Source: Candidatus Hydrogenedentota bacterium
GTDB lineage: Bacteria > Hydrogenedentota > Hydrogenedentia > Hydrogenedentales > JAJRTN01
Assembly (NCBI GenBank): GCA_024278275.1
Contig: JAJRTN010000009.1
Location: 1-64,000 of the forward strand
DNA: 64,000 bases
Reading direction: 5' to 3'
A model generated the notes under the pieces. It was not told the origin of the DNA and made no database searches. It was given only the letters and a program-made list of their open reading frames with translations. This document shows positions 15,954-28,630 of the stretch, in pieces. Every line of letters starts with the position of its first letter. Positions within the stretch are counted from its first letter, which is position 1. A program made the translations under genes and the position numbers.

Positions 15954-17570
15954 ATGACCCAAGACACCACACGCGCCATCGAGGCATGGCGTACTATCCT
16001 GGGGGCCTCCCGCCTGGACACGACCGAGGCAACACGGGCGCGGTACGCCCGGACCACCTCGCCCCGGGGCACGCGGCCCTGCGCGGTCCTTTACCCCGTC
16101 TCGGCGGACGAGGTGCGGACCATCATCCAGGTGGCAGCGTGCCACGGCGTGGTGCTTTACCCCATTTCGGGGGGACATAACTGGGGCTATGGCGATGCCT
16201 GCGCGCCCACGGAAGGTGCGGCGATTCTCGACTTAGGACGCATGAACCGCATCATCGAAATCAATCCCACCCTGGGGTACGCGGTGGTGGAGCCGGGGGT
16301 GACGCAAGGGCAGCTTCACGATGCGGTGCGCCGGGAAGCGCCGGGTTTCTGGCTGGATTGCTCTGCCGCGGGGCCGGAGGCCAGCGTGGTGGGCAATGCG
16401 CTGGACCGGGGCTTCGGCCACACGCCCTATGGCGACCACGTGCGCACCACGTGCGGCATGGAGGTGGTGCTGGCGGACGGGCGGTTGGTGCGGACGGGCT
16501 TCGGGCACTTCACGGACGCCCGCGCCACACACGTCTACCCCTATGGCGTCGGGCCGATCCTGGACGGCCTCTTCATGCAATCCAACCTGGGCATCGTGAC
16601 GCGCATGGGAATCTGGCTCTATCCGGAGCCGGAGGCCTTCCGCTTCTTTCACATCGGTGTCAACCGGGACTCGGACGTGGCGCCCCTGGTGGACGCCCTC
16701 CGTCCCCTGCGCATGAAAGGCCTGTTGAACAGCGCCGTTCACATCGGCAACGACCTGCGGGTCCTGAGCAGCATGGTGGCCTATCCCTGGGAAGCCTGCG
16801 GCGGGACGCCGCCCTTGTCCCCGGAGCTGCGCCGGGTACTGCGCCGCGAATCGGGATTGGGCGCGTGGAACGTCACCGGCTCCCTCACGGGCCCCGCCGC
16901 CCAGGTACGGGGCGCCGGACGCGCCCTGCGAAAAGCGGCGAAGGGCCTGGGCAAGGTCACCTTCGTGACCGACCTCAGGCTGCGTTGGGGACAACGCTTG
17001 CTAAAAGGGTTGAAACCTCTGGGCCTGGGCACGGTGTTGGCCCGGCAACTGGAGGCCCTGGAACCCAACTATGGCCTGCTGAAAGGCGAACCATGCACGG
17101 CGCCCCTGGCGGGCGCCCATTGGCGGGTCCGGGACATGGGCAAGCCCCGGCCCGAGGATCCCCGCGACACCCACGCCGGGCTGCTCTGGATATCGCCGGT
17201 GGTGCCCTTGTGCGGGGAAGATGTGCTTCGTCTGCTTCAAGCCGTGGAGCCCCTGTTCCATGCCGAAGGCTTTGACTTGCTCGCCACCTTTACCATGCTG
17301 AACGAACGCGCCATGGTGGGCATTCTGAACCTGGCCTTCGACCGGCGCATCAAGGAAGAAGTGACGGCGGCCGACCGATGCTACCGGGCGGTGCTGAAAC
17401 GGCTGCTGGCGCTGGGCTATCCTCCCTACCGCACCGCGCCCTGCGGCATGCCACTCCTGCGGGAGGAAGGCGACACTTTCTGGGAACTCACGCGGGATAT
17501 CAAACGAGCATTGGACCCGAAGGATATCCTGGCGCGGGGACGGTACATCCCGCCCCTTGACCAGGATTGA
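15954..17570 (+). CDS. FAD-dependent oxidase/dehydrogenase of the VAO/4-cresol dehydrogenase type
   Basis: 538 residues. The N-terminal FAD-binding PCMH domain includes CAVLYPVSADEVRTIIQVA, YPISGGHNWGYGDACAP, and GNALDRGFGHTPYGDHV. The C-terminal substrate domain of the vanillyl-alcohol oxidase class ends DIKRALDPKDILARGRYIP, which resembles the conserved tail of p-cresol methylhydroxylase flavoproteins. Such enzymes oxidise para-substituted phenols, alcohols or sugars. No cytochrome partner is adjacent, so an oxidase or an unlinked acceptor is likely. There is no signal peptide; the gene stands between coaBC and the glycosyltransferases. Confidence 0.82.
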   Translation: MTQDTTRAIEAWRTILGASRLDTTEATRARYARTTSPRGTRPCAVLYPVSADEVRTIIQVAACHGVVLYPISGGHNWGYGDACAPTEGAAILDLGRMNRIIEINPTLGYAVVEPGVTQGQLHDAVRREAPGFWLDCSAAGPEASVVGNALDRGFGHTPYGDHVRTTCGMEVVLADGRLVRTGFGHFTDARATHVYPYGVGPILDGLFMQSNLGIVTRMGIWLYPEPEAFRFFHIGVNRDSDVAPLVDALRPLRMKGLLNSAVHIGNDLRVLSSMVAYPWEACGGTPPLSPELRRVLRRESGLGAWNVTGSLTGPAAQVRGAGRALRKAAKGLGKVTFVTDLRLRWGQRLLKGLKPLGLGTVLARQLEALEPNYGLLKGEPCTAPLAGAHWRVRDMGKPRPEDPRDTHAGLLWISPVVPLCGEDVLRLLQAVEPLFHAEGFDLLATFTMLNERAMVGILNLAFDRRIKEEVTAADRCYRAVLKRLLALGYPPYRTAPCGMPLLREEGDTFWELTRDIKRALDPKDILARGRYIPPLDQD

Positions 17571-17601
17571 TCCGCGTCGCGGGGGAACGTAGGATCAGCC
17601 C

Positions 17602-19092
17602 GTGCGAAAAACATCTCTTGAAACAGGCGGCCGGGGCCGCGACCTGTTGTGCCTGCTCCTGCTGGCGCTGGCCTTTCGCGTGCTCTTTCTCGTCGCCATG
17701 CCGCGCGTACTCGACAACGCGGACGCCATTCACTATACCGAGACGGCCAGGGCTTTCCACGAAACCTGGGGCCACGCCGTGGTACCTCCGGGTCAACGGC
17801 CCTACGTCATCGATCCGAAGATTCCCGTGCTCTACCCCCTCTTCGGGGCGTTGGCATCATACCTGGTTCCCGACGTGGAATGGGCGTGCCGACTGGTCTC
17901 CTTCATCTCCTCGGTGCTGCTCATTTTCCCGGTCTACTGCCTGGCAGGGGACCTGCACGGCAGGCGGACGGCCCGGATTGCCGGGCTTATCGTGGCCCTG
18001 TGGCCGTGGCTGGCGGATTATGCCTGCCGGGTTTCCACGGAAGCCACGGCGGTCCTGTGGTGGGTCCTGGGGGCATGGTTGCTGATACGGGCGGCCCGTG
18101 ACGGCGGCAAAGCGGTACGCTGGGCGGCTCCCCCGGCCTTCGCGGCCCTTCACTTCACCCGACCCGAGGGCACGGTGCTGCTGATCGCCGCGCCGGTCGC
18201 GGCGGCACTCTTCCTGCGCGGGGCCTGCCCAATCCGTCGCTGGTTGACACCGTACTTGGTTGTGACCGCCGCGGCCCTGGCGGGCTCCATGCTCTATAAC
18301 CACGCCTTCGCGGGCGCGGCAAGCGCCAACGTGCGCGTCGCCTATATCGTACACGAATTCGACATGCTCCGTTTCGGACAGACCGCCCTTACCACGGTCA
18401 GCGACGTTTTCCCCATCATGCTGGGGCCCGTGCTGTTCCTCTTTCTTGGCGTGGGGCTCCTTCAGCCACGGGTGCGCAAGCGTGATTTCGGGGCCGAGTT
18501 TTTCCTGCTCTCGCTCTGTGCCGTGCAATGGGGGGCGAGCCTCTTCGTCCTCTCCCCCGCGCCCCGCTACCTCATGGCCCCGCTGGTCGTGCTGGCCCTC
18601 TGGTCCGCCCGCGGCATGGACCTGACCATGACTGAAACCGTAAAGGCCGGGCGCGGTCGAATCGTGACCGCCCTCCCGGTCCTGGTCCTCGTGCTGAGCA
18701 TGCTGCTGGCCGCCTTCACCACCCTCGGCGCGGAGCACTTCGGACGCCGGCCCCGTCAGCCGCGGGAATACAAGGCCGCGGGCCTGTGGATGCGGGACAA
18801 CCTGCCACCGGGCCTCATCTTCACGCGAAAACCGCAGGTCGGCTTTTACGCGGCCATGCCTTCGACCGGCCCCGCACTCGACGACAGCCTGGAAGAGGCC
18901 CTGGCCCGCGCCCGGAACGCGAAGGCCCGCTACGTGGTGGTGGACGAGCGCTACACGGCGCAGACCGTGCCCGCCCTGCGGCCCCTGCTGGACCCCGCGC
19001 AAGCGCCGCCCGAATTGGAATACCTGAAAACCTTCGATCTTTATCCGAAAACCAGGGTGGTGGTGTATTCCCTGCGCCATGGGGAAGGTTGA
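17602..19092 (+). CDS. Membrane glycosyltransferase of the GT-C (GT39/ArnT-like) superfamily
   Basis: 496 residues starting at the GTG at 17602, with AGGAT upstream. The first hydrophobic helix is followed by a periplasmic loop, DNADAIHYTETARAF, carrying the Asp and Tyr typical of GT-C enzymes, and DPKIPVLYPLF. About ten transmembrane helices follow, then a soluble C-terminal domain from about residue 395. These enzymes transfer sugars from polyprenyl phosphates to lipid or protein acceptors outside the membrane. The GT9 gene begins 6 nt after the stop, so the two are an operon. Donor and acceptor are not known. Confidence 0.8.
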   Translation: MRKTSLETGGRGRDLLCLLLLALAFRVLFLVAMPRVLDNADAIHYTETARAFHETWGHAVVPPGQRPYVIDPKIPVLYPLFGALASYLVPDVEWACRLVSFISSVLLIFPVYCLAGDLHGRRTARIAGLIVALWPWLADYACRVSTEATAVLWWVLGAWLLIRAARDGGKAVRWAAPPAFAALHFTRPEGTVLLIAAPVAAALFLRGACPIRRWLTPYLVVTAAALAGSMLYNHAFAGAASANVRVAYIVHEFDMLRFGQTALTTVSDVFPIMLGPVLFLFLGVGLLQPRVRKRDFGAEFFLLSLCAVQWGASLFVLSPAPRYLMAPLVVLALWSARGMDLTMTETVKAGRGRIVTALPVLVLVLSMLLAAFTTLGAEHFGRRPRQPREYKAAGLWMRDNLPPGLIFTRKPQVGFYAAMPSTGPALDDSLEEALARARNAKARYVVVDERYTAQTVPALRPLLDPAQAPPELEYLKTFDLYPKTRVVVYSLRHGEG

Positions 19093-19098
19093 CGCACC

Positions 19099-19920
19099 GT
19101 GCGTACGCTTTTCGTTCATTCCGGCGGCATGGGCGATTTCCTCCTCGCATGCCCTGCGCTGGCGCACTTATCCCACAACCGGACGGTGACCCTGGCGGGA
19201 CACCGGGAGCGGCTTGAAATTGCCGTTGAGGCGGGCCTGGCGGAGAGCGCGGTGCGCCTGGACGCCATCGACTTTGGAAGCCTTTTCTCGACCCCAAGCC
19301 CACGGCTTCAGGCATTTGCTTCCAACTTCGACGAAGCCATCGTGTGGATGGGGGATGATGATGGCCTTATTACCCAGGGACTGCATGCGTGCGGCGTGGA
19401 GGAAGTGCGCTGTTTTCCCGGCCTGCCCCGGGCCAATTGGACTAAGCATGCCACGGCCTATTACCTCGACTGCCTTGGACTCCCCGAGACGGACGGTTTT
19501 CAAATAACCATTGCGCCGAACAAGACCTTCAACGGCTGGATTATCCACCCCGGCAGCGGCAGCGCCCGGAAAAACTGGCCCGTGGAGCGTTTCGCCGAGG
19601 TGGCGGACTATCTTCAGCATCGGGGCCGGACGGTCCGCTGGTGCCTGGGCCCCGCCGAGGAAGCATTCCAGTTGCCGGACGGGGCCGTTCCTTTGCGTCT
19701 TGCGTCACCGGTGGCACTGGCCCACTGCCTGGCGGCCGCCGAGGGCTACGTGGGGAATGACAGCGGCGTGTCGCACCTGGCGGCGATGCTGGGCTGTCCC
19801 ACCGTGGCCATCTTCGGGCCGACGGACCCCGGGATATGGGCGCCCCGCGGACCACGGGTCCGGGTGGTGCATGAGACGCCCTGGCCCACGGTCGAGAAAG
19901 TGCTGACGGCCCTACCCTGA
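19099..19920 (+). CDS. Glycosyltransferase family 9 (heptosyltransferase-like)
   Basis: 273 residues from the GTG at 19099. The first Rossmann domain is short and starts RTLFVHSGGMGDFLLACPAL. The nucleotide-sugar domain contains IIHPGSGSARKNWPVERFAEVA and the family signature YVGNDSGVSHLAAMLGCP followed by VAIFGPTDP. GT9 enzymes add heptose or related sugars to the LPS inner core from ADP-activated donors. Coupling to the GT-C gene upstream and to lptD 460 bp downstream fits outer-membrane glycolipid assembly. Confidence 0.88.
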   Translation: MRTLFVHSGGMGDFLLACPALAHLSHNRTVTLAGHRERLEIAVEAGLAESAVRLDAIDFGSLFSTPSPRLQAFASNFDEAIVWMGDDDGLITQGLHACGVEEVRCFPGLPRANWTKHATAYYLDCLGLPETDGFQITIAPNKTFNGWIIHPGSGSARKNWPVERFAEVADYLQHRGRTVRWCLGPAEEAFQLPDGAVPLRLASPVALAHCLAAAEGYVGNDSGVSHLAAMLGCPTVAIFGPTDPGIWAPRGPRVRVVHETPWPTVEKVLTALP

Positions 19921-20383: not shown

Positions 20384-23300
20384 ATGACGGGTCGTTTTTT
20401 ACTGTTGGTGATGGCTTTCGTGATGACGTGGAGCGGTGTGTCCGACGCCCGGGCGCAGGCGGAATTCACGGCGCGGGAGACGGATGCCTCGTTGCGGGAT
20501 GTGGTGGCGGATCCGGCCCGGGGAGTGGTGTATGCCGCCGCGCAGGACCGTGACAAAGTCTGGGTCATGGACTTTGGACTGGACAACCCGATTGCCACGA
20601 TTGGGGTGGGGCAAAGCCCGGTTGCCCTTGCTTTGGCCCATGATGGAAAGACCCTGGCTTGCGTGAACTTCTTGGGCAATTCTCTTTCTCTAATTGATAC
20701 GGCAACCCGCTCCGTACGGGCCACCGTGGCGGTGGAAGATGGTCCGGTCGCGGTGGCCGCGCTGCCGGGGGGGCAGTTCGCGGTGCTCAACGCCTTTTCC
20801 GACAGTCTCTCCGTGGTCGATGCCGCGGGCGTCAATCCCGTGGTCGAGACCATATCCACGGTAGGTGTGCCCGGCTCCCTCGCGGTGGGTGCGGGCATGG
20901 TGGCCGTGGGGGGCCGTGTTCCCCCGTCCGTGCAAATCCATGCGTTGCCCTCCTGGAAGGTGACGCGAACCATTGTCCTGCCCGAGCCTCCGGTGAGCCT
21001 GGCCTGGTGGGAGGCGCGCCTGGCCGTGGCCACGGGCAGGCAAGTGCGCCTATATGGCCGGGATGGTGCCCTGCTTCACACGCGGGATCTTGCCGTGGGG
21101 GATCTGCGAGTAATGGACGGTCAGCTATACGCGCTCACGGATTCGGCCATACTGAGCCTGGACAACCGCTTGGTTACTCTTGATGAATGGCCCCTGCATG
21201 GGGCGGCGAAGCAACTTCGCGGGGGCGGCGGTCTTGTCGCCGCTTTGGCCCCGGGAAAGCGGCGGGTCTATGTAAGGGCCGATAAGAAAACTGTCGCGCC
21301 CGGGCTCTTGTCCCCCGAACGAGCGGGGCTGACCGTGACCGAAGCCGTGGACGCCGCCGTGGTCCCCCCCATGCCATCATCACCGCCCGTCGAGCCGTCC
21401 CCTCCGGAAAAGTCGCCGCCAAAGGTGCCGGCGCCCGCCGAAGCGGTGGCGTCTCCCCCTGAAACACCACGGGCACCGCACACCGCGGCCACGTCCGGCG
21501 GAATGCCAGAGGGGAAATCGCGAGCGGGCTATCGGAAACACCCCCTGATGAAGCAAGGGATCCGGGCGCCTTCGCCGCAGCGTCCCTCCGCGTCGCCGCT
21601 GCGCGGCCTGAGCAAACGGTCCATCGCGGACGCCATCATCCGGCCCTCGGCCTTTCTATCATCGGAATCCGGTTTCCAGCCGCCCGATCTTAATGAACGC
21701 GGTAACCTGCAAGCGGACAATGTACGTGTTCATGAAGGTGAGTACCGGGCCGAAGGCCATGTCCGGCTTCGGCTGGGGGATATGTATGCCACCATGGACC
21801 GTTTGGATCAGTGGGAGGATTCGGGCGTCATCCACGGTGAAGGTCACGTTTTGCTCGAACAAGGCGCGTCAACGCTCCGGGCGAAGGCGTTCACCTACTA
21901 TCCCGCCGAAGAGACAACGGAGATTGCCCGCGTGTTTGAATCCGCCCTGCTCGATGACACGGGGAAGGGGAAACTCCAAACAGGCGGAAAGCTGGAAGCG
22001 CTGGGCGTTGAGCTTCGTGAACCCACGCGGGAACTGTCCGCGAACCGTATCGACTACGATTTTTCCACCGGTTGCGGGTCCATCATCCATGCCCGGGGCC
22101 GGGCTGGAATCTATTTCTTTTCCGCGGAGGAGCTTCGCCTGCTCGGGCCGAAGTCGATGGAAGGCAAAGACGTGTGGGTGTCCACGTGCGATCACGACCC
22201 GCCGCACTACAAGCTGCGATTAAGCCAGGCTTCCGTGATCGATGGTGATATCCAGGGGGGCACCAACGCGCGGCTTCAACTGTGGAACCTGAACACTCCG
22301 TTCTGGTTGCCCAAGTGGCGGCGCGGAACGATGGGAATCACCCCCTGGAACATCACCTTCGATAATGGCCGGCGGGCGCGAATCGGATACTACGTGAACG
22401 TGGGACAGCAATTCGCCATTTCCCCGTCCGTGGAGCTGGGTCCCCGGTTGTTTTTCACGGAAAACGAGGGGGTCGGCCTGGGCGCCGACCTGAACTACGA
22501 TTTCATGAACCGGCCCGCCGCCTGGCTGTTTCGAAGCAAGGGCGAGGCCCATGGCTTTCAAACAACGGAAGGCCGGGGTTACCTGCACATCTACCATCGC
22601 TACGAGTACAACAATGATTTGGTGGTCCGTGCGCAGCTTGAACAGTGGTCGGACGAAGATTTCTACAAGGATTTCTTCTTTGACAAGTATACCCGCCGTA
22701 CCGCGCCCCGCACCTTCGTCAACGCCACGTACCGCCGTGACGCCTACGTGGCCACCGCGACGGTCCGACCCAACACCCATCACTGGGTCAGCGAGACGGA
22801 ACGGCTGCCGGAAACCACTTTCCACTTGCTGGAACGTCCCTTGGTGGATCACCTGTTGGTCTCCTTTGACACGGTGAACGGCTATAACAGCCGTGAGCCG
22901 CACGGTTCCAACGGCACGCGCACATCTAACGTGCTGCGCCTGACCTATGACTGGGATCCCCTGCCCGCCCTGGCGATTACACCTTTCTGGGAAATCGAAG
23001 GCACGTGGTATTCAAGAGACCGCCAATCGGGCAACCCCACCGGCCGCCTTACGACCACCCTCGGCACCACCGCCCAAACGCGCTTCCATAAAACTTATGG
23101 CGGTTTTTGGGGGTTCTCGACCTTCAAGCACCTGGTGGTGCCGTCCGTGACCTATTCTTACCGGCCCAACACCAGCATCGACCCCTACGAAACACCCCGT
23201 TACGATGCGCTCGACAATGTCTACGGCCACAGCCGGATCGAGTTGAAGCTCGACAATGTTTTTTACGGACGCGATGCCGATACCAAGGAGGTGTGGCAGG

Positions 23301-23896
23301 TGGCCCGCATCACCCTTTACCAGGGGAACGACTTTTCGAGTGAATACATCAACTCGGAAGATTACGAGGCCGAGTTCGACCTGCGGCCCCGTTCCTGGTG
23401 GGGCATGCAGGTGACGGGAGAACGGCACACGGCCACGAATGAGTCCGAATCCATTCGGGAACGGCCGTATCAACGCCGTCTCTTTGACTGGTATGAGCGG
23501 GTCTTTGACCGCGCGCCGCCACGGGCACAGGACTTCGAACTGAACAATGTGTTTGGTGACTACAACCGCATACTCGCTAATCTGTACTATGACAATACAA
23601 CTATCGGCGGTAATATCAACGGACGCATCGGCTACGCCTACACGGAAACCCGGGATCGGGTTTACAACCGCGAGATTCTTTACGGTCTTGGGCGGAAGCT
23701 GGGCGAGCATTGGGGGGTCGGCTTCGAACACATCTACGACTTCGAGCGGAACGAGCTGCGTCAACAGACCTATGAATTGCGCCGAAGCCTGCATTGCTGG
23801 GAGATGTCGTTGCGCTTTCGAGACCGCAAGTCCGGCTTTGATGTCAACGTGGCATTCAACATAAAAGCCTTCCCCGGCAGCAAGCTGAAGTTCTGA
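20384..23896 (+). CDS. lptD: Fusion of a YncE-like beta-propeller to the LPS assembly protein LptD
   Basis: 1170 residues against roughly 750-850 for ordinary LptD. A signal peptide ends DARAQA. Residues about 26-310 are a YncE/YVTN-type propeller with blades such as ASLRDVVADPARGVVYAA and ALAHDGKTLACVNFLGNSLSLID. A Pro-rich linker spans about 328-365. The OstA/LptA-like jelly-roll starts near residue 441 (LQADNVRVHEGEYRAEG), and the 26-strand-type barrel follows from about 600 (STCDHDPPHYKLR) to LHCWEMSLRFRDRKSG and a terminal Phe. LptD with LptE inserts LPS into the outer leaflet. Cysteines that could make the inter-domain disulfides are sparse (TGCGS, STCDH, LHCWE). Upstream GT9 and GT-C genes fit LPS synthesis. 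Confidence 0.85.
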   Translation: MTGRFLLLVMAFVMTWSGVSDARAQAEFTARETDASLRDVVADPARGVVYAAAQDRDKVWVMDFGLDNPIATIGVGQSPVALALAHDGKTLACVNFLGNSLSLIDTATRSVRATVAVEDGPVAVAALPGGQFAVLNAFSDSLSVVDAAGVNPVVETISTVGVPGSLAVGAGMVAVGGRVPPSVQIHALPSWKVTRTIVLPEPPVSLAWWEARLAVATGRQVRLYGRDGALLHTRDLAVGDLRVMDGQLYALTDSAILSLDNRLVTLDEWPLHGAAKQLRGGGGLVAALAPGKRRVYVRADKKTVAPGLLSPERAGLTVTEAVDAAVVPPMPSSPPVEPSPPEKSPPKVPAPAEAVASPPETPRAPHTAATSGGMPEGKSRAGYRKHPLMKQGIRAPSPQRPSASPLRGLSKRSIADAIIRPSAFLSSESGFQPPDLNERGNLQADNVRVHEGEYRAEGHVRLRLGDMYATMDRLDQWEDSGVIHGEGHVLLEQGASTLRAKAFTYYPAEETTEIARVFESALLDDTGKGKLQTGGKLEALGVELREPTRELSANRIDYDFSTGCGSIIHARGRAGIYFFSAEELRLLGPKSMEGKDVWVSTCDHDPPHYKLRLSQASVIDGDIQGGTNARLQLWNLNTPFWLPKWRRGTMGITPWNITFDNGRRARIGYYVNVGQQFAISPSVELGPRLFFTENEGVGLGADLNYDFMNRPAAWLFRSKGEAHGFQTTEGRGYLHIYHRYEYNNDLVVRAQLEQWSDEDFYKDFFFDKYTRRTAPRTFVNATYRRDAYVATATVRPNTHHWVSETERLPETTFHLLERPLVDHLLVSFDTVNGYNSREPHGSNGTRTSNVLRLTYDWDPLPALAITPFWEIEGTWYSRDRQSGNPTGRLTTTLGTTAQTRFHKTYGGFWGFSTFKHLVVPSVTYSYRPNTSIDPYETPRYDALDNVYGHSRIELKLDNVFYGRDADTKEVWQVARITLYQGNDFSSEYINSEDYEAEFDLRPRSWWGMQVTGERHTATNESESIRERPYQRRLFDWYERVFDRAPPRAQDFELNNVFGDYNRILANLYYDNTTIGGNINGRIGYAYTETRDRVYNREILYGLGRKLGEHWGVGFEHIYDFERNELRQQTYELRRSLHCWEMSLRFRDRKSGFDVNVAFNIKAFPGSKLKF

Positions 23897-23897
23897 C

Positions 23898-25091
23898 ATG
23901 GATCGTTCCACCACACTCCGCGAAAGGGTTCGCCGCCTTCTCCCCGCCTTGACCTCGCTGCGGCACGAATTGCACGCCCATCCGGAAATCCGTTTCAGGG
24001 AACATTGGACATCGGACCGCATTGCGGCATGGCTTGACACCCATGGCGTGCCCTTCACCCGCGGTCACGCTCGGGGAACGGGCATCGTAGGGCTCATCCA
24101 GGGCCGGGAAGACGGTCCCACGGTCGCCCTGCGCGCCGACATGGACGCCCTCGAAATGCAGGAACGCACCGGTCTTCCCTATGCGTCGTCCCTGGAGAAC
24201 CGGATGCACGCCTGCGGGCACGACGGACACATGACCATTCTCTGCGGCGTGGCGGCCGTGCTCTCCGCGCACCGGGATGGGTTGGCGGGTTCCGTGAAGC
24301 TCATCTTCCAGCCCGCCGAGGAAGGGGCCGGGGGCGGGCGCCATATGGTGGAGGAGGGGCATCTAAAGGGGGTATCGGCCGCTTTCGCGCTGCACAACTG
24401 GCCCGTTCATCCCGTGGGTCGCATGGCGGTGGCCTCGGGCGTGGTGATGGCGAGCGCGGATTTCTTCCGTATCACCATCTCGGGAGAAGGCGGCAACGCG
24501 GCCGATCCGGCAAGGGGCGTGGATCCCATCCTGGCCGCCGCCCACGTGGTTACAACGCTGCAATCGGTGGTGAGCCGGAATGTCGATCCCTGGGATGCGG
24601 GCGTGGTGAGTGTTACCCGCTTCAACGGCGGCACCGCGTCGAACATCATTCCCGATGAGGTGGTGCTGGAGGGCACGTTCCGGGCCTTGCGCGACGATAC
24701 GCGAAGCCGGTTGCACAAGCGAATCGCCGAAATTGCCCAGGGCACGGCAGCCACGTTCGGAGCCAGGGCCGACGTGCAATTCGGCGGGGACGGTTATCCC
24801 CCACTCCGCAATGACGCGAAGATGAGCGCCTTTGCGCGGAACGTGGCGGAAGAGTGCTTCGGCCCGGAAGCGCTAATCCCCGCCACCCACCCGCACATGA
24901 CCTCGGAAGACTTCGCCTTTTACCTCGCGGCGGTACCCGGTGCGTTTCTTTTCCTCGGAAACGGCGCGGCCGATGGTTCGACATCGGCGGGACTGCACAC
25001 GGCGGGCTACGATTTTAACGATGCGGCCATACCTGTCGGTGTGGAGTGGATGGCCATGATCGCGCTGCGCTTCCTGGCCGAACGCGGCTGA
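23898..25091 (+). CDS. M20-family amidohydrolase (hippurate/N-acyl-amino-acid hydrolase type)
   Basis: 397 residues starting 1 nt after the lptD stop. The metal-site motifs are HACGHDGHM near residue 105 and EEGAGGGRHMVEEG near residue 139; the dimerisation domain contains ISGEGGNAADPARGVDPI, and HPHMTSEDFAFY near 330 supplies the last ligand. The family uses two zinc or similar ions to hydrolyse N-acyl or N-aminoacyl bonds in the cytosol. In the usual GxGGHAAxP loop the His is Asn here (GGNAADP), which may affect activity, since that His helps transition-state binding across the dimer. The substrate is unknown; linkage to LPS is probably only transcriptional. Confidence 0.88.
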   Translation: MDRSTTLRERVRRLLPALTSLRHELHAHPEIRFREHWTSDRIAAWLDTHGVPFTRGHARGTGIVGLIQGREDGPTVALRADMDALEMQERTGLPYASSLENRMHACGHDGHMTILCGVAAVLSAHRDGLAGSVKLIFQPAEEGAGGGRHMVEEGHLKGVSAAFALHNWPVHPVGRMAVASGVVMASADFFRITISGEGGNAADPARGVDPILAAAHVVTTLQSVVSRNVDPWDAGVVSVTRFNGGTASNIIPDEVVLEGTFRALRDDTRSRLHKRIAEIAQGTAATFGARADVQFGGDGYPPLRNDAKMSAFARNVAEECFGPEALIPATHPHMTSEDFAFYLAAVPGAFLFLGNGAADGSTSAGLHTAGYDFNDAAIPVGVEWMAMIALRFLAERG

Positions 25092-25426: not shown

Positions 25427-26716
25427 CTACGGCAGCCCCGAACCGAAGAGGAGACGGCAGGTCCATTCGTGCCCGGTTCCCCAGGGCATCCGGTAGCACG
25501 CGTAGGCGGAGTAGCAGGAGACCGCCATGAGGAGAAGCAACACCCCCCACTGCCAGCGTTTCCGGCATCGATCCACCACGGGAGCACCCATCAACAGCAG
25601 CACGGGCATGACGCCGATATACCAGCGGAAGCCGTAGGCCGCGCCGCCGTAGTTGTTGGTGCGCAGGGCGTAGTAGGCCGTGAGCAGGGCGAATGCCGCC
25701 GCGGCGGCCCACGTCGCGCCTCGATAGGGGTAAGCGGGGAAAAAGGAACGAACCAGCCCGGCCAATCCTGTCAGCAGCACGGGAAAGAGCAGGAAGCTGC
25801 CGTAACGGCCGAAGGTCATGTGGAAAAGATAGGTGGCGCGGGGCTCGTGGAGGGCGTCCACGCCCAGGGGATTGCGCCAATAGGAACTTTCAAAGAGGTA
25901 GAGTTCCTTCCGCATCTGGACGGGCAGGGGGCTGCCGGTCACCACCCACATGATGGCAAAATGCGTGACCAGGACGGGGGCCGCGCCCAGGGCGATCCAC
26001 GTCAAACCGCGCAGTGGAAAGCGGAGCGCGGCATAAATAAAGAGGGCCGCGACAAAGATGGTGAGGGGCATGTCGAGGGCAAACACCCAGGCACCGCAGA
26101 AGCCGAAGGCAACGAGCCGCCATGGCCCAACCTTCACGCGACCCGTACCCATGGCTATCCCCAGGTAGGCGGTGATCAGCAGCAACGCGGCGGCCGGGGT
26201 ATGGTTGTTGATCTGCGTGGCGAAGCCGGGGATCTGCGTGCCGAAGGCAAAGGCGAAGAAAACGGCGGTCCGGCACCAGGGGCGCGTCATGAAAAGCCCG
26301 AGCAAGAGGTAAAACGCCACCAACCCCAGCCCATAGGTTCCACCAATAAGGGTGGCGGTCATTACCTGGACCACGCGCTTGAGATCGCCTTCGGGCTTCA
26401 GATCCCAGGACAGGAAATGGCGCATCAAGGCGTATTCGCCCGCCATCGCCAGCGGCAGGAGGGGCGGTTTGGTGGACAGGAGACGCCCGCCAACCTCCAC
26501 TTTGTCCACCATCTTGGCGGCGAATGGATTTCCGGGCAGGTCGATGCGCCAGGTACCGGCCTGATCCAGGCTCCAGACCGAGGCCAGGCGGCTGTTTGCG
26601 CTGTCGCCAAGGATAACCCGGTGCATCCCGCCAAAGACCAGCGACAGCGACAGCAGCGCCAGGAGAAGCGCCACGCCCTGTGCCGCCCGCGGGGAACCAT
26701 GGTGGGACTCCTTCAC
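25427..26716 (-). CDS. Multi-pass membrane protein, GT-C glycosyltransferase-like
   Basis: 429 residues from the GTG at 26716, with GGAGG 7 nt upstream (26724-26728). About ten hydrophobic helices cover the protein. The first extracytoplasmic loop ends VGGRLLSTKPPLLPLAMAGEYA; the KPPL element is characteristic of GT39-type GT-C transferases just before helix 2. No other catalytic motif stands out. It follows the lipoprotein gene by 16 bp on the minus strand, so the pair is an operon. A polyprenyl-phosphate-sugar transferase for an envelope glycan is plausible but unproven. Confidence 0.65.
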   Translation of the reverse strand: MKESHHGSPRAAQGVALLLALLSLSLVFGGMHRVILGDSANSRLASVWSLDQAGTWRIDLPGNPFAAKMVDKVEVGGRLLSTKPPLLPLAMAGEYALMRHFLSWDLKPEGDLKRVVQVMTATLIGGTYGLGLVAFYLLLGLFMTRPWCRTAVFFAFAFGTQIPGFATQINNHTPAAALLLITAYLGIAMGTGRVKVGPWRLVAFGFCGAWVFALDMPLTIFVAALFIYAALRFPLRGLTWIALGAAPVLVTHFAIMWVVTGSPLPVQMRKELYLFESSYWRNPLGVDALHEPRATYLFHMTFGRYGSFLLFPVLLTGLAGLVRSFFPAYPYRGATWAAAAAFALLTAYYALRTNNYGGAAYGFRWYIGVMPVLLLMGAPVVDRCRKRWQWGVLLLLMAVSCYSAYACYRMPWGTGHEWTCRLLFGSGLP

Positions 26717-26732
26717 GGCAACGCCTCCGATC

Positions 26733-27353
26733 TCAGCGTCCTCCGAAGAAGCCAAAAGTGCGCTTGAACCAGCCCTTGCGCGCTTCGGGCGCGGCCACAT
26801 CCTCGGTTTTCCCGCGCACGGGCACCCATTGGCCGTCCACGCGTTCCTCGGTGCGTTTGGCCACGAAGGTGCTCCCCAGGCGGCGCCACCGACTCATACG
26901 ATACTCATAGGTTATCACTTCCACGCCGGTGCTGCGAACAAAGTTGTCGTCGGCCGCGACGAGTTTGCGGTTCCGTTGGAGCTTCGTGGCGTAACGGACC
27001 TTCGCCAGACGCACATCGGCCTTCAGGGGCGCCGTGCGGGAATCGGTATCCTGCATGGCGATCTCGAAGCGCTCCGGGCCCTCGGGAAATTCCACGTATT
27101 GCTTGACATAGTACGGCCGCAAGCGAATCACTTCGGCATCAGCCGCGCTTCCATGACGCGATTCGGCGCGCACTTCACGGGCAACCAGTCGGCGCAACCG
27201 TGTTTCGGCATCATCGGACAGGTTGAGCTGTTCGTCCTCCGTGCTTTGCGCGGAGGCGCCCCCCCCGGACGAAGCGCCCCATTTGAAGCGCCACCCCTGG
27301 CCGGCGCAACCCGCCAGGGCAAGCAAACAGAGTAACACGGTAATCTTTCGCAT
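26733..27353 (-). CDS. Predicted lipoprotein of unknown function
   Basis: 206 residues from the ATG at 27353, with GGAAG 6 nt ahead; another ATG at 27368 is in frame. The N-terminus MRKITVLLCLLALAGC is a good lipoprotein signal with lipobox LAGC. The mature part is charged, with many Arg and Lys, an acidic patch (DEQLNLSDDAETRLRRL) and a C-terminus RKGWFKRTFGFFGGR. No known domain recognised. Operon with the membrane protein downstream and probably with the zinc-ribbon gene upstream (170 bp apart). Confidence 0.7.
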   Translation of the reverse strand: MRKITVLLCLLALAGCAGQGWRFKWGASSGGGASAQSTEDEQLNLSDDAETRLRRLVAREVRAESRHGSAADAEVIRLRPYYVKQYVEFPEGPERFEIAMQDTDSRTAPLKADVRLAKVRYATKLQRNRKLVAADDNFVRSTGVEVITYEYRMSRWRRLGSTFVAKRTEERVDGQWVPVRGKTEDVAAPEARKGWFKRTFGFFGGR

Positions 27354-27523
27354 GGATATCTTCCGCATGACCTATCCCGGTAAAAGCCGTTTTCACAATC
27401 CTTTGTGTCCGGAGCAAAACCAAAGACCACTCCCCCGTTCTCCCGCCACCGGGAAGCATAGCATATCCACCCGCACCCGGGGCACCCATCGGCCATGGTG
27501 AAGCCTGGTGATCACACCGCGGG

Positions 27524-28630
27524 CTAAAAGCCGCCAAAGTGTTGGGCGTCGGCACCTTTGCTCCGGAAAACGAGCTTGCGCTGGTTGCGCTGCCGATCCA
27601 TGACCACGACCCCGCCCTGCCGCCGGATGGACTGAATCACGAAACGATTCTGGATAAGTCCGTTTATACCTGCCCGTTCCTCGGGGATTGGCCGGCCGTT
27701 CTGGTCCCGGTAAGTGTCGTTGTGGAGCGTGAATTCCGCCCACTGGGCCCCTTCGTCATAATCCTTCAACACCATGTTGTAGGCCTTGAGTTCAGCGTCC
27801 ACCACCCCCTTCAGGTTTCGGAAGGTTGACGAGGGATCGATCAGCATGGCACGCTCAACCAGTGAATTGGCTTTCCGGTAATTGGCCTCGCTGTAAGGCT
27901 CCTTATCCAGCAGGCCGTTTATCTCCTCGACCAACTGGTTGCGTAGGTTTTCCATGACCTCCCGATCCTGGCTGGTCTTGTTGTAATTGGCAACCCGCAC
28001 GCTCTCCTCGAAGGCCTCAATAAGCGGCTCGCCCCGGCTCAACATGAGCAACGCCTCGTTCTGCATGAGGACGGGGGCCACGGTGTCATCGGTTTTCATG
28101 TAGGCCATGAGTTTGCCCGTCCCCATCACCAGGAGCGTGATGAGCACTACGGCCCCGATAGCAATGCCGGTAATCTTCAGTGCTTTCTCAATGGGCTCGG
28201 GAATACCACCGGACCGCCGGGCCGCCGGGGGCCGGGGGGTGTAGGCATCCGCCAAAACAGACTGGGCCAAGTCCTTGTGGCGGGCGTCCAGCTTGGAAAA
28301 GCTGTCCTGGCCGGCGGCCGGCCGGCTTGGCGCGGGCTCCTCTTTCCTGTGAAACCATGAGCCCTTGCTCTCGCTCTGCCGACGTTGCGCCTCCATGGCC
28401 ATTTCCTGTTCGGCGCGGAAAGCCTCCAGGGCGTCTTTCACGTTACCCGACAGGGTGTAGGTGGTGGTCTGTTCACCGCCCAGATCCTTGATGGTTACTT
28501 TTTGTTCTTCCCGCTTCGGCCGCCCCACTTCCTCCCCGCAGTAGCGACACTTCGTGGCCCACGCACTGATCACCATCCGGCAAATAGGACACTGCCGCTG
28601 TTCCTCGTCCCTGCGAATTTTATTGGCCAA
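27524..28630 (-). CDS. Zinc-ribbon single-pass membrane protein
   Basis: 368 residues with a TTG start at 28630, supported by GGGAGG 6 nt upstream. An N-terminal zinc ribbon, CPICRMVISAWATKCRYCG, is followed by a charged helical linker, one transmembrane helix (GIAIGAVVLITLLVMGTGKLM, near residue 160) and a helical extracytoplasmic domain with TPR-like spacing (EPYSEANYRKANSLVERAML). The C-terminus is beta-rich with RRQGGVVVMDRQRNQRKLVF, resembling the general-secretion-associated pilus-assembly-type beta hook. The function is unknown; it could be an envelope sensor or a scaffold for the two downstream genes. Confidence 0.65.
   Translation of the reverse strand: MANKIRRDEEQRQCPICRMVISAWATKCRYCGEEVGRPKREEQKVTIKDLGGEQTTTYTLSGNVKDALEAFRAEQEMAMEAQRRQSESKGSWFHRKEEPAPSRPAAGQDSFSKLDARHKDLAQSVLADAYTPRPPAARRSGGIPEPIEKALKITGIAIGAVVLITLLVMGTGKLMAYMKTDDTVAPVLMQNEALLMLSRGEPLIEAFEESVRVANYNKTSQDREVMENLRNQLVEEINGLLDKEPYSEANYRKANSLVERAMLIDPSSTFRNLKGVVDAELKAYNMVLKDYDEGAQWAEFTLHNDTYRDQNGRPIPEERAGINGLIQNRFVIQSIRRQGGVVVMDRQRNQRKLVFRSKGADAQHFGGF

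Follow-up and report, generated by a model that had tools for sequence, protein, structure and literature searches.

The window, which is the whole stretch of 64,000 nucleotides analysed here, encodes a protein of the phylum Hydrogenedentota in which a seven-bladed β-propeller is almost certainly fused to the N-terminus of LptD. The protein is in all likelihood the LptD of the organism, in which the bridge exporting lipopolysaccharide (LPS) ends at the outer membrane. Both components are known; what is new is their combination and its conservation across a phylum.

Organization of the protein and its neighbourhood

The gene is a single intact open reading frame, 20384..23896 on the forward strand, which starts with ATG, has no internal stop and encodes 1170 amino acids. 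Its parts and the adjacent genes are given in Table 1. The LptD of E. coli has 784 amino acids (chain of 9a39), and the window protein is thus about 386 amino acids longer, in agreement with the initial annotation, which put the excess over a typical LptD at 350-400 residues. The Pro-rich linker proposed in the same annotation is also present: from residue 304 the linker contains 20% Pro and 14% Ala, and it is unstructured in the AlphaFold2 model. Across the fused relatives it varies in length from 74 to 224 residues and in Pro content from 7 to 28%. The relatives also have a hydrophobic N-terminus. A conserved segment precedes the jellyroll (RAPsPxRPSxSPL..SxRTIxDAL; 21539-21658, residues about 386-425) and is common to the fused and the unfused LptDs of the Hydrogenedentota.

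Table 1. Parts of the propeller-LptD protein and the flanking genes, in positions of the window.
Feature	Position	Strand	Basis
Sec signal peptide, residues 1-24, MTGRFLLLVMAFVMTWSGVSDARA	20384..20455	+	sequence reading; without lipobox Cys; ends ARA
Seven-bladed YVTN/YncE-type β-propeller, residues about 25-303	20456..21292	+	profiles, PDB, AlphaFold2, Foldseek
Pro/Ala-rich disordered linker (about 304-385) and conserved segment (about 386-425)	21293..21658	+	alignment, model, composition
LptA-like jellyroll of LptD, residues about 430-630, holds Cys602	21671..22273	+	Pfam in relatives, 7omm/LptA alignment, AlphaFold2 strands
LptD outer-membrane β-barrel, residues about 631-1170, holds Cys1138	22274..23893	+	Pfam LptD_2/LptD in relatives, Foldseek (low-confidence model region)
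Glycosyltransferase family 9 (heptosyltransferase), upstream neighbour	19099..19920	+	PF01075 E=5e-21
M20 peptidase family, downstream neighbour	23898..25091	+	PF01546 E=8e-41

The region upstream, 15954-19920, contains genes for a PMT_2-type membrane glycosyltransferase and for the heptosyltransferase-family protein, and fits an LPS or glycan neighbourhood. The M20 peptidase gene adjoins lptD in several of the fused relatives as well. Further downstream, 25430-28630 on the minus strand encodes three proteins that belong to no Pfam family.

The C-terminal part is LptD

Searched alone, the window protein matches LptD_2 with E=0.013, which is under the Pfam cut-off, and LptD_N weakly with E=0.15. 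A search of the whole window genome with the LptD family found nothing. The relatives are more informative. Among 34 aligned sequences, LptD_N is matched by 29, LptD_2 by 25 and LptD by 13, the best value being 1e-11, and a profile made from the LptD part only matches the gonococcal LptD 7omm (1.6e-5) and LptA chains. Structure prediction of the full chain, which had been suggested in the initial annotation, succeeded in part. LptD structures take the first nine places among the Foldseek matches of the model, but the barrel region is of low confidence; in the full-length AlphaFold2 run, which used five sequences, the mean pLDDT was 51 and the barrel was not formed.

Cys602 (kept in 54/56) and Cys1138 (49/53) are the sole widely conserved cysteines of the LptD part. 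Cys602 is found at the end of the jellyroll, where it aligns with the 'NTC' cysteine of 7omm, while Cys1138 is located in the last strands. Both are absent from G053 and G024, which belong to two distinct branches, and only Cys1138 has been lost in G003 and G017 (family f4). The pair matches the pattern of the disulfide tying the jellyroll of LptD to its barrel, and such a bond may form here as well. The window genome further encodes LptE (7.5e-12), adjacent LptF and LptG, and LpxC (1.8e-101), showing that an ordinary Lpt system is present. The identification as LptD, which had been made earlier from the letters only, is thus borne out by the Pfam matches of the relatives, by the Foldseek matches to solved LptD structures and by the cysteine pair.

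The N-terminal part is a YVTN-type propeller

Propellers of the YVTN/YncE type are built from repeats of about 42 residues that make up seven four-stranded blades. The N-terminal part matches the YVTN repeat of NCBIfam (TIGR02276, E=1e-13) in three stretches and the YncE model with 2.5e-6. The best PDB chain is 1l0q, a YVTN propeller from a surface-layer protein of an archaeon, both when the single sequence is used (E=6e-26) and when a profile of 34 sequences is used (7e-34); hydrazine synthase beta and YncE come next. An AlphaFold2 model of residues 25-306, computed with two relatives, has a mean pLDDT of 85, a pTM of 0.85 and 27 strands, and its top Foldseek match is again 1l0q (TM 0.82, rmsd 2.4 Å). 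The strands make up six blades of four strands each, and the remaining three belong to a seventh blade, which would be closed by the N-terminal strand. The repeat matches, the 1l0q match and the strands agree with the 7-blade-type propeller that the initial annotation had assigned to the first domain, and the domain search of the two halves that it proposed places the propeller N-terminally and LptD, through the Pfam matches of the relatives, C-terminally.

Two other propeller models were compared. The BamB (YfgL) model gave no match to the window protein or to its propeller in NCBIfam searches up to E=1. NF048007, the model for a stabilizer of MmpL3/TtfA, scored 16 bits (E=0.005) with the propeller against a family cut-off of 600 bits, and this weak match may reflect nothing but the shared fold.

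Blades 1-4 are more conserved than blades 5-7. In blades 1-4 the conserved positions favour the loops of the top face (d-a and b-c) over those of the bottom face (p=0.004, these blades having been picked post hoc; p=0.07 when all blades are included). This weakly suggests that the top face is a binding face.

Distribution of fused and unfused LptD

The Hydrogenedentota sample consisted of 68 species genomes, all from one order and distributed over eleven families. Propeller and LptD are encoded in one frame without internal stops in 35 of these, and two more (G056 and G067) have the halves at contig ends. Eighteen genomes encode an LptD without a propeller, four contain a fragment or a gene starting at a contig end, and nine gave no LptD match. 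The fusion is found in nine of the eleven families, and unfused LptDs are found in families f4, f5, f6, f7 and f10. In the unfused family f7, the genes downstream of lptD are those that also follow it in the window and in the fused families f9, f10 and f11; the order of the three minus-strand genes mentioned above is kept in f7, f9, f10 (G009) and f11.

The window comes from an assembly of 200 contigs, and an assembly join of a propeller gene to lptD, or a stop overlooked between the two, could in principle have produced the long reading frame. An identical fusion with the same order of parts is, however, present in 35 separate assemblies without internal stops, and an artefact of this kind is therefore rejected with near certainty. 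A sequencing join and a first domain other than a propeller were the two outcomes that the initial annotation regarded as fatal to the fusion; the fusion recurs and the domain is a propeller.

The relatives were also searched for the two parts as separate genes, another check proposed at the outset. No orthologous stand-alone propeller was found in the unfused genomes, and a split into two genes there was rejected. The strongest remaining propeller matches in these genomes (E about 1e-11 to 1e-15) are proteins of about 620 amino acids, a paralogue that occurs in fused genomes as well. In the LptDs of L106 and of its unfused f10 relatives (G038, G043, G044, G045, G027 and G035) the propeller is replaced, after the signal peptide, by a short conserved segment resembling VRDxEANRxNFxxxLAxLxxLRD, which is probably helical.

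Four f4 genomes (G011, G023, G028 and G032, the last being 94% complete) encode LpxC, and no LptD was found in them by the profile (E 1e-10) or by LptD_2. Either their LptD is very diverged or their assemblies have gaps.

Outside the phylum no fusion was found among 174 genomes of other groups, in a search sensitive to LptDs close to the profile; the LptDs found in these groups have about 680-800 amino acids. The contig JAACEL010000173.1 (L001), titled Nitrospiraceae bacterium OTbin.67, was considered as evidence for a second phylum and rejected. Its protein has the same length as that of G053, in the order of the window, and the organism name on this contig looks wrong.

Evolution of the propeller

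When the fused or unfused state is placed on the LptD tree, seven changes are needed. A tree of the propeller, based on its own separate residues, has 14 of 31 splits in common with the LptD tree, compared to 0.23 for relabelled trees, indicating that propeller and LptD have been inherited together. The simplest history, and a probable one, is a single gain at the base of the phylum followed by about seven losses. It assumes that an orthologous propeller, once lost, is unlikely to be regained in the same place. Since the outgroup LptDs are distant and sit on very long branches, the root of the LptD tree is not firm.

In seven of nine close pairs the propeller has a dN/dS of about 0.1-0.3, and the LptD part has about 0.02-0.17. 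The value of the propeller exceeds that of LptD in all but one of the seven pairs, mostly two- to fivefold, the exception being G042/G041, where the two are equal. In G021/G015 dS was saturated. In G009/G016 the propeller has a dN/dS of 0.82, but with 31% identity this pair is too diverged for the method to be reliable. In most pairs purifying selection acts on the propeller. Its faster evolution compared to LptD would be compatible with a weak constraint as well.

With 18 genomes having LptD without the propeller and seven changes on the tree, the propeller appears to be dispensable for the core task of LptD, and it is probably an accessory that helps the transport machine without belonging to its core. 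The initial annotation had envisaged a new architecture in which an essential LPS translocon has a built-in propeller. The novelty stands so far, as no description of a propeller-LptD fusion was found among the titles and abstracts that searches of 5.39 million open papers brought up. A propeller that belongs to an essential translocon is not supported, since LptD was kept through what were probably about seven losses of the propeller.

Possible roles of the propeller

The N-terminal jellyroll of LptD is periplasmic and constitutes the docking site for LptA, as established for E. coli. The propeller would consequently be periplasmic and lie close to where LptA joins LptD, hung on the N-terminus of LptD by a disordered tether of 74-224 residues. 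Of the roles considered, the likeliest is that it acts in cis as a docking or stabilizing module whose loop face grips a protein partner. Under certain conditions it could hold together the Lpt assembly that spans the envelope, or LptD while it folds. LPS transport proper would be left to the normal jellyroll and barrel. Given that the tethered propeller is absent from scattered lineages, a docking or stabilizing module is the simplest reading, and we propose this role tentatively. Taken as a whole, an LptD whose tethered periplasmic propeller docks or stabilizes is the best explanation, even if we give it slightly less than an even chance. A bolder reading is a phylum-specific LPS translocon, where the outer-membrane component uses a tethered periplasmic scaffold of its own to grip the BAM complex or the bridge of Lpt proteins, a job that elsewhere is done by separate proteins or is missing; this we consider conceivable, but somewhat doubtful.

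The propeller might instead be an assembly aid that works in cis in the manner of BamB, handing LptD over to chaperones or the BAM complex while it is still unfolded and helping the slow folding of the barrel. LptD is a slow and difficult BAM substrate that undergoes disulfide rearrangement, which speaks for such an aid. So does the window genome, where no BamB scores over the family cut-off. BamB is described as a periplasmic propeller of the BAM complex of E. coli (PMC12578637). However, many PQQ-like proteins of the window genome match BamB below the cut-off and may include a BamB, and the unfused relatives fold their LptD without a propeller. Furthermore, BamB is PQQ-type and eight-bladed, unlike the seven-bladed YVTN-type propeller found here, and we regard an assembly aid as unlikely. 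An envelope anchor or sensor, with a propeller that positions or regulates LptD by binding to peptidoglycan, some other glycan or a small ligand, is in our opinion no more probable. Propellers frequently bind glycans, and a linker of the observed length is long enough for the peptidoglycan layer, but Pfam and NCBIfam searches of the window protein and its relatives gave no match to a family of the peptidoglycan-binding type, and the most conserved propeller positions contain no conserved His or catalytic cluster. The ligands put forward in the initial annotation (glycan, LptE or peptidoglycan) did not gain support, and LptE is a separate gene in the genome.

It could also be argued that the propeller has no specific task in LptD, and either persists by descent or acts independently at the envelope. 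The approximately seven losses and the faster evolution of the propeller are in line with this, and so is genome size, as the median is 6.0 Mb for the fused and 3.4 Mb for the unfused genomes; the loss might then be part of a general reduction, but when tested on the tree the difference is not significant (p=0.25). Against it stands that the fusion has been kept in frame in 35 genomes, and at contig ends in two more, in nine families and mostly with low dN/dS. Retention and low dN/dS in most pairs imply that some function of the propeller is under selection, and a mere passenger seems quite improbable.

The list of partners of LptD, which is a drug target, is still growing (LptE, LptM). A selected, tethered propeller on the LptD of a whole phylum would point to an overlooked interaction, either where LptA meets LptD in the bridge or during the assembly of LptD. 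The propeller-less relatives that have lptD at the same conserved gene position (f7) provide a natural comparison set.

Comparison with known systems

The window protein has the same succession of an LptA-like jellyroll and a large barrel as the LptDs of Proteobacteria (5iv9, 4q35, 7omm and 8h1r). The cysteines at the end of the jellyroll and in the last strands are conserved alike, and LptE, LptF/G and LpxC are also encoded. It differs from these proteins by the 386 extra N-terminal residues, which make up propeller and linker, and by being too diverged to pass the Pfam LptD cut-offs alone. The propeller has the same seven-bladed YVTN fold as 1l0q and E. coli YncE, 1l0q being the best PDB match by both sequence and structure. 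These are a separate protein or a module of an S-layer, whereas the propeller described here forms the N-terminal domain of an LPS transporter in the outer membrane.

Propellers have been found next to other envelope machines. MSMEG_5308, the closest functional precedent for the proposed docking or stabilizing role, is a non-essential seven-bladed propeller that stabilizes the mycobacterial lipid exporter MmpL3/TtfA (PMC6593404). MSMEG_5308/Rv1057 thus resembles the Hydrogenedentota propeller in being seven-bladed, attached to an envelope lipid exporter and non-essential for it. It is, however, a separate protein, it belongs to a mycolate exporter of the inner membrane, and its model matches the window propeller weakly; it serves here as an analogy. 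BamB of E. coli and BamI of the Bacteroidota BAM complex are likewise propellers beside an outer-membrane barrel machine (PMC12578637), but both are separate proteins; BamI is six-bladed and extracellular, and BamB is PQQ-type. BtuG, the lid of BtuB (8blw), is among the Foldseek matches of the full model and is also a propeller paired with an outer-membrane barrel. BtuG is an extracellular lipoprotein lid, whereas the N-terminus of LptD is periplasmic.
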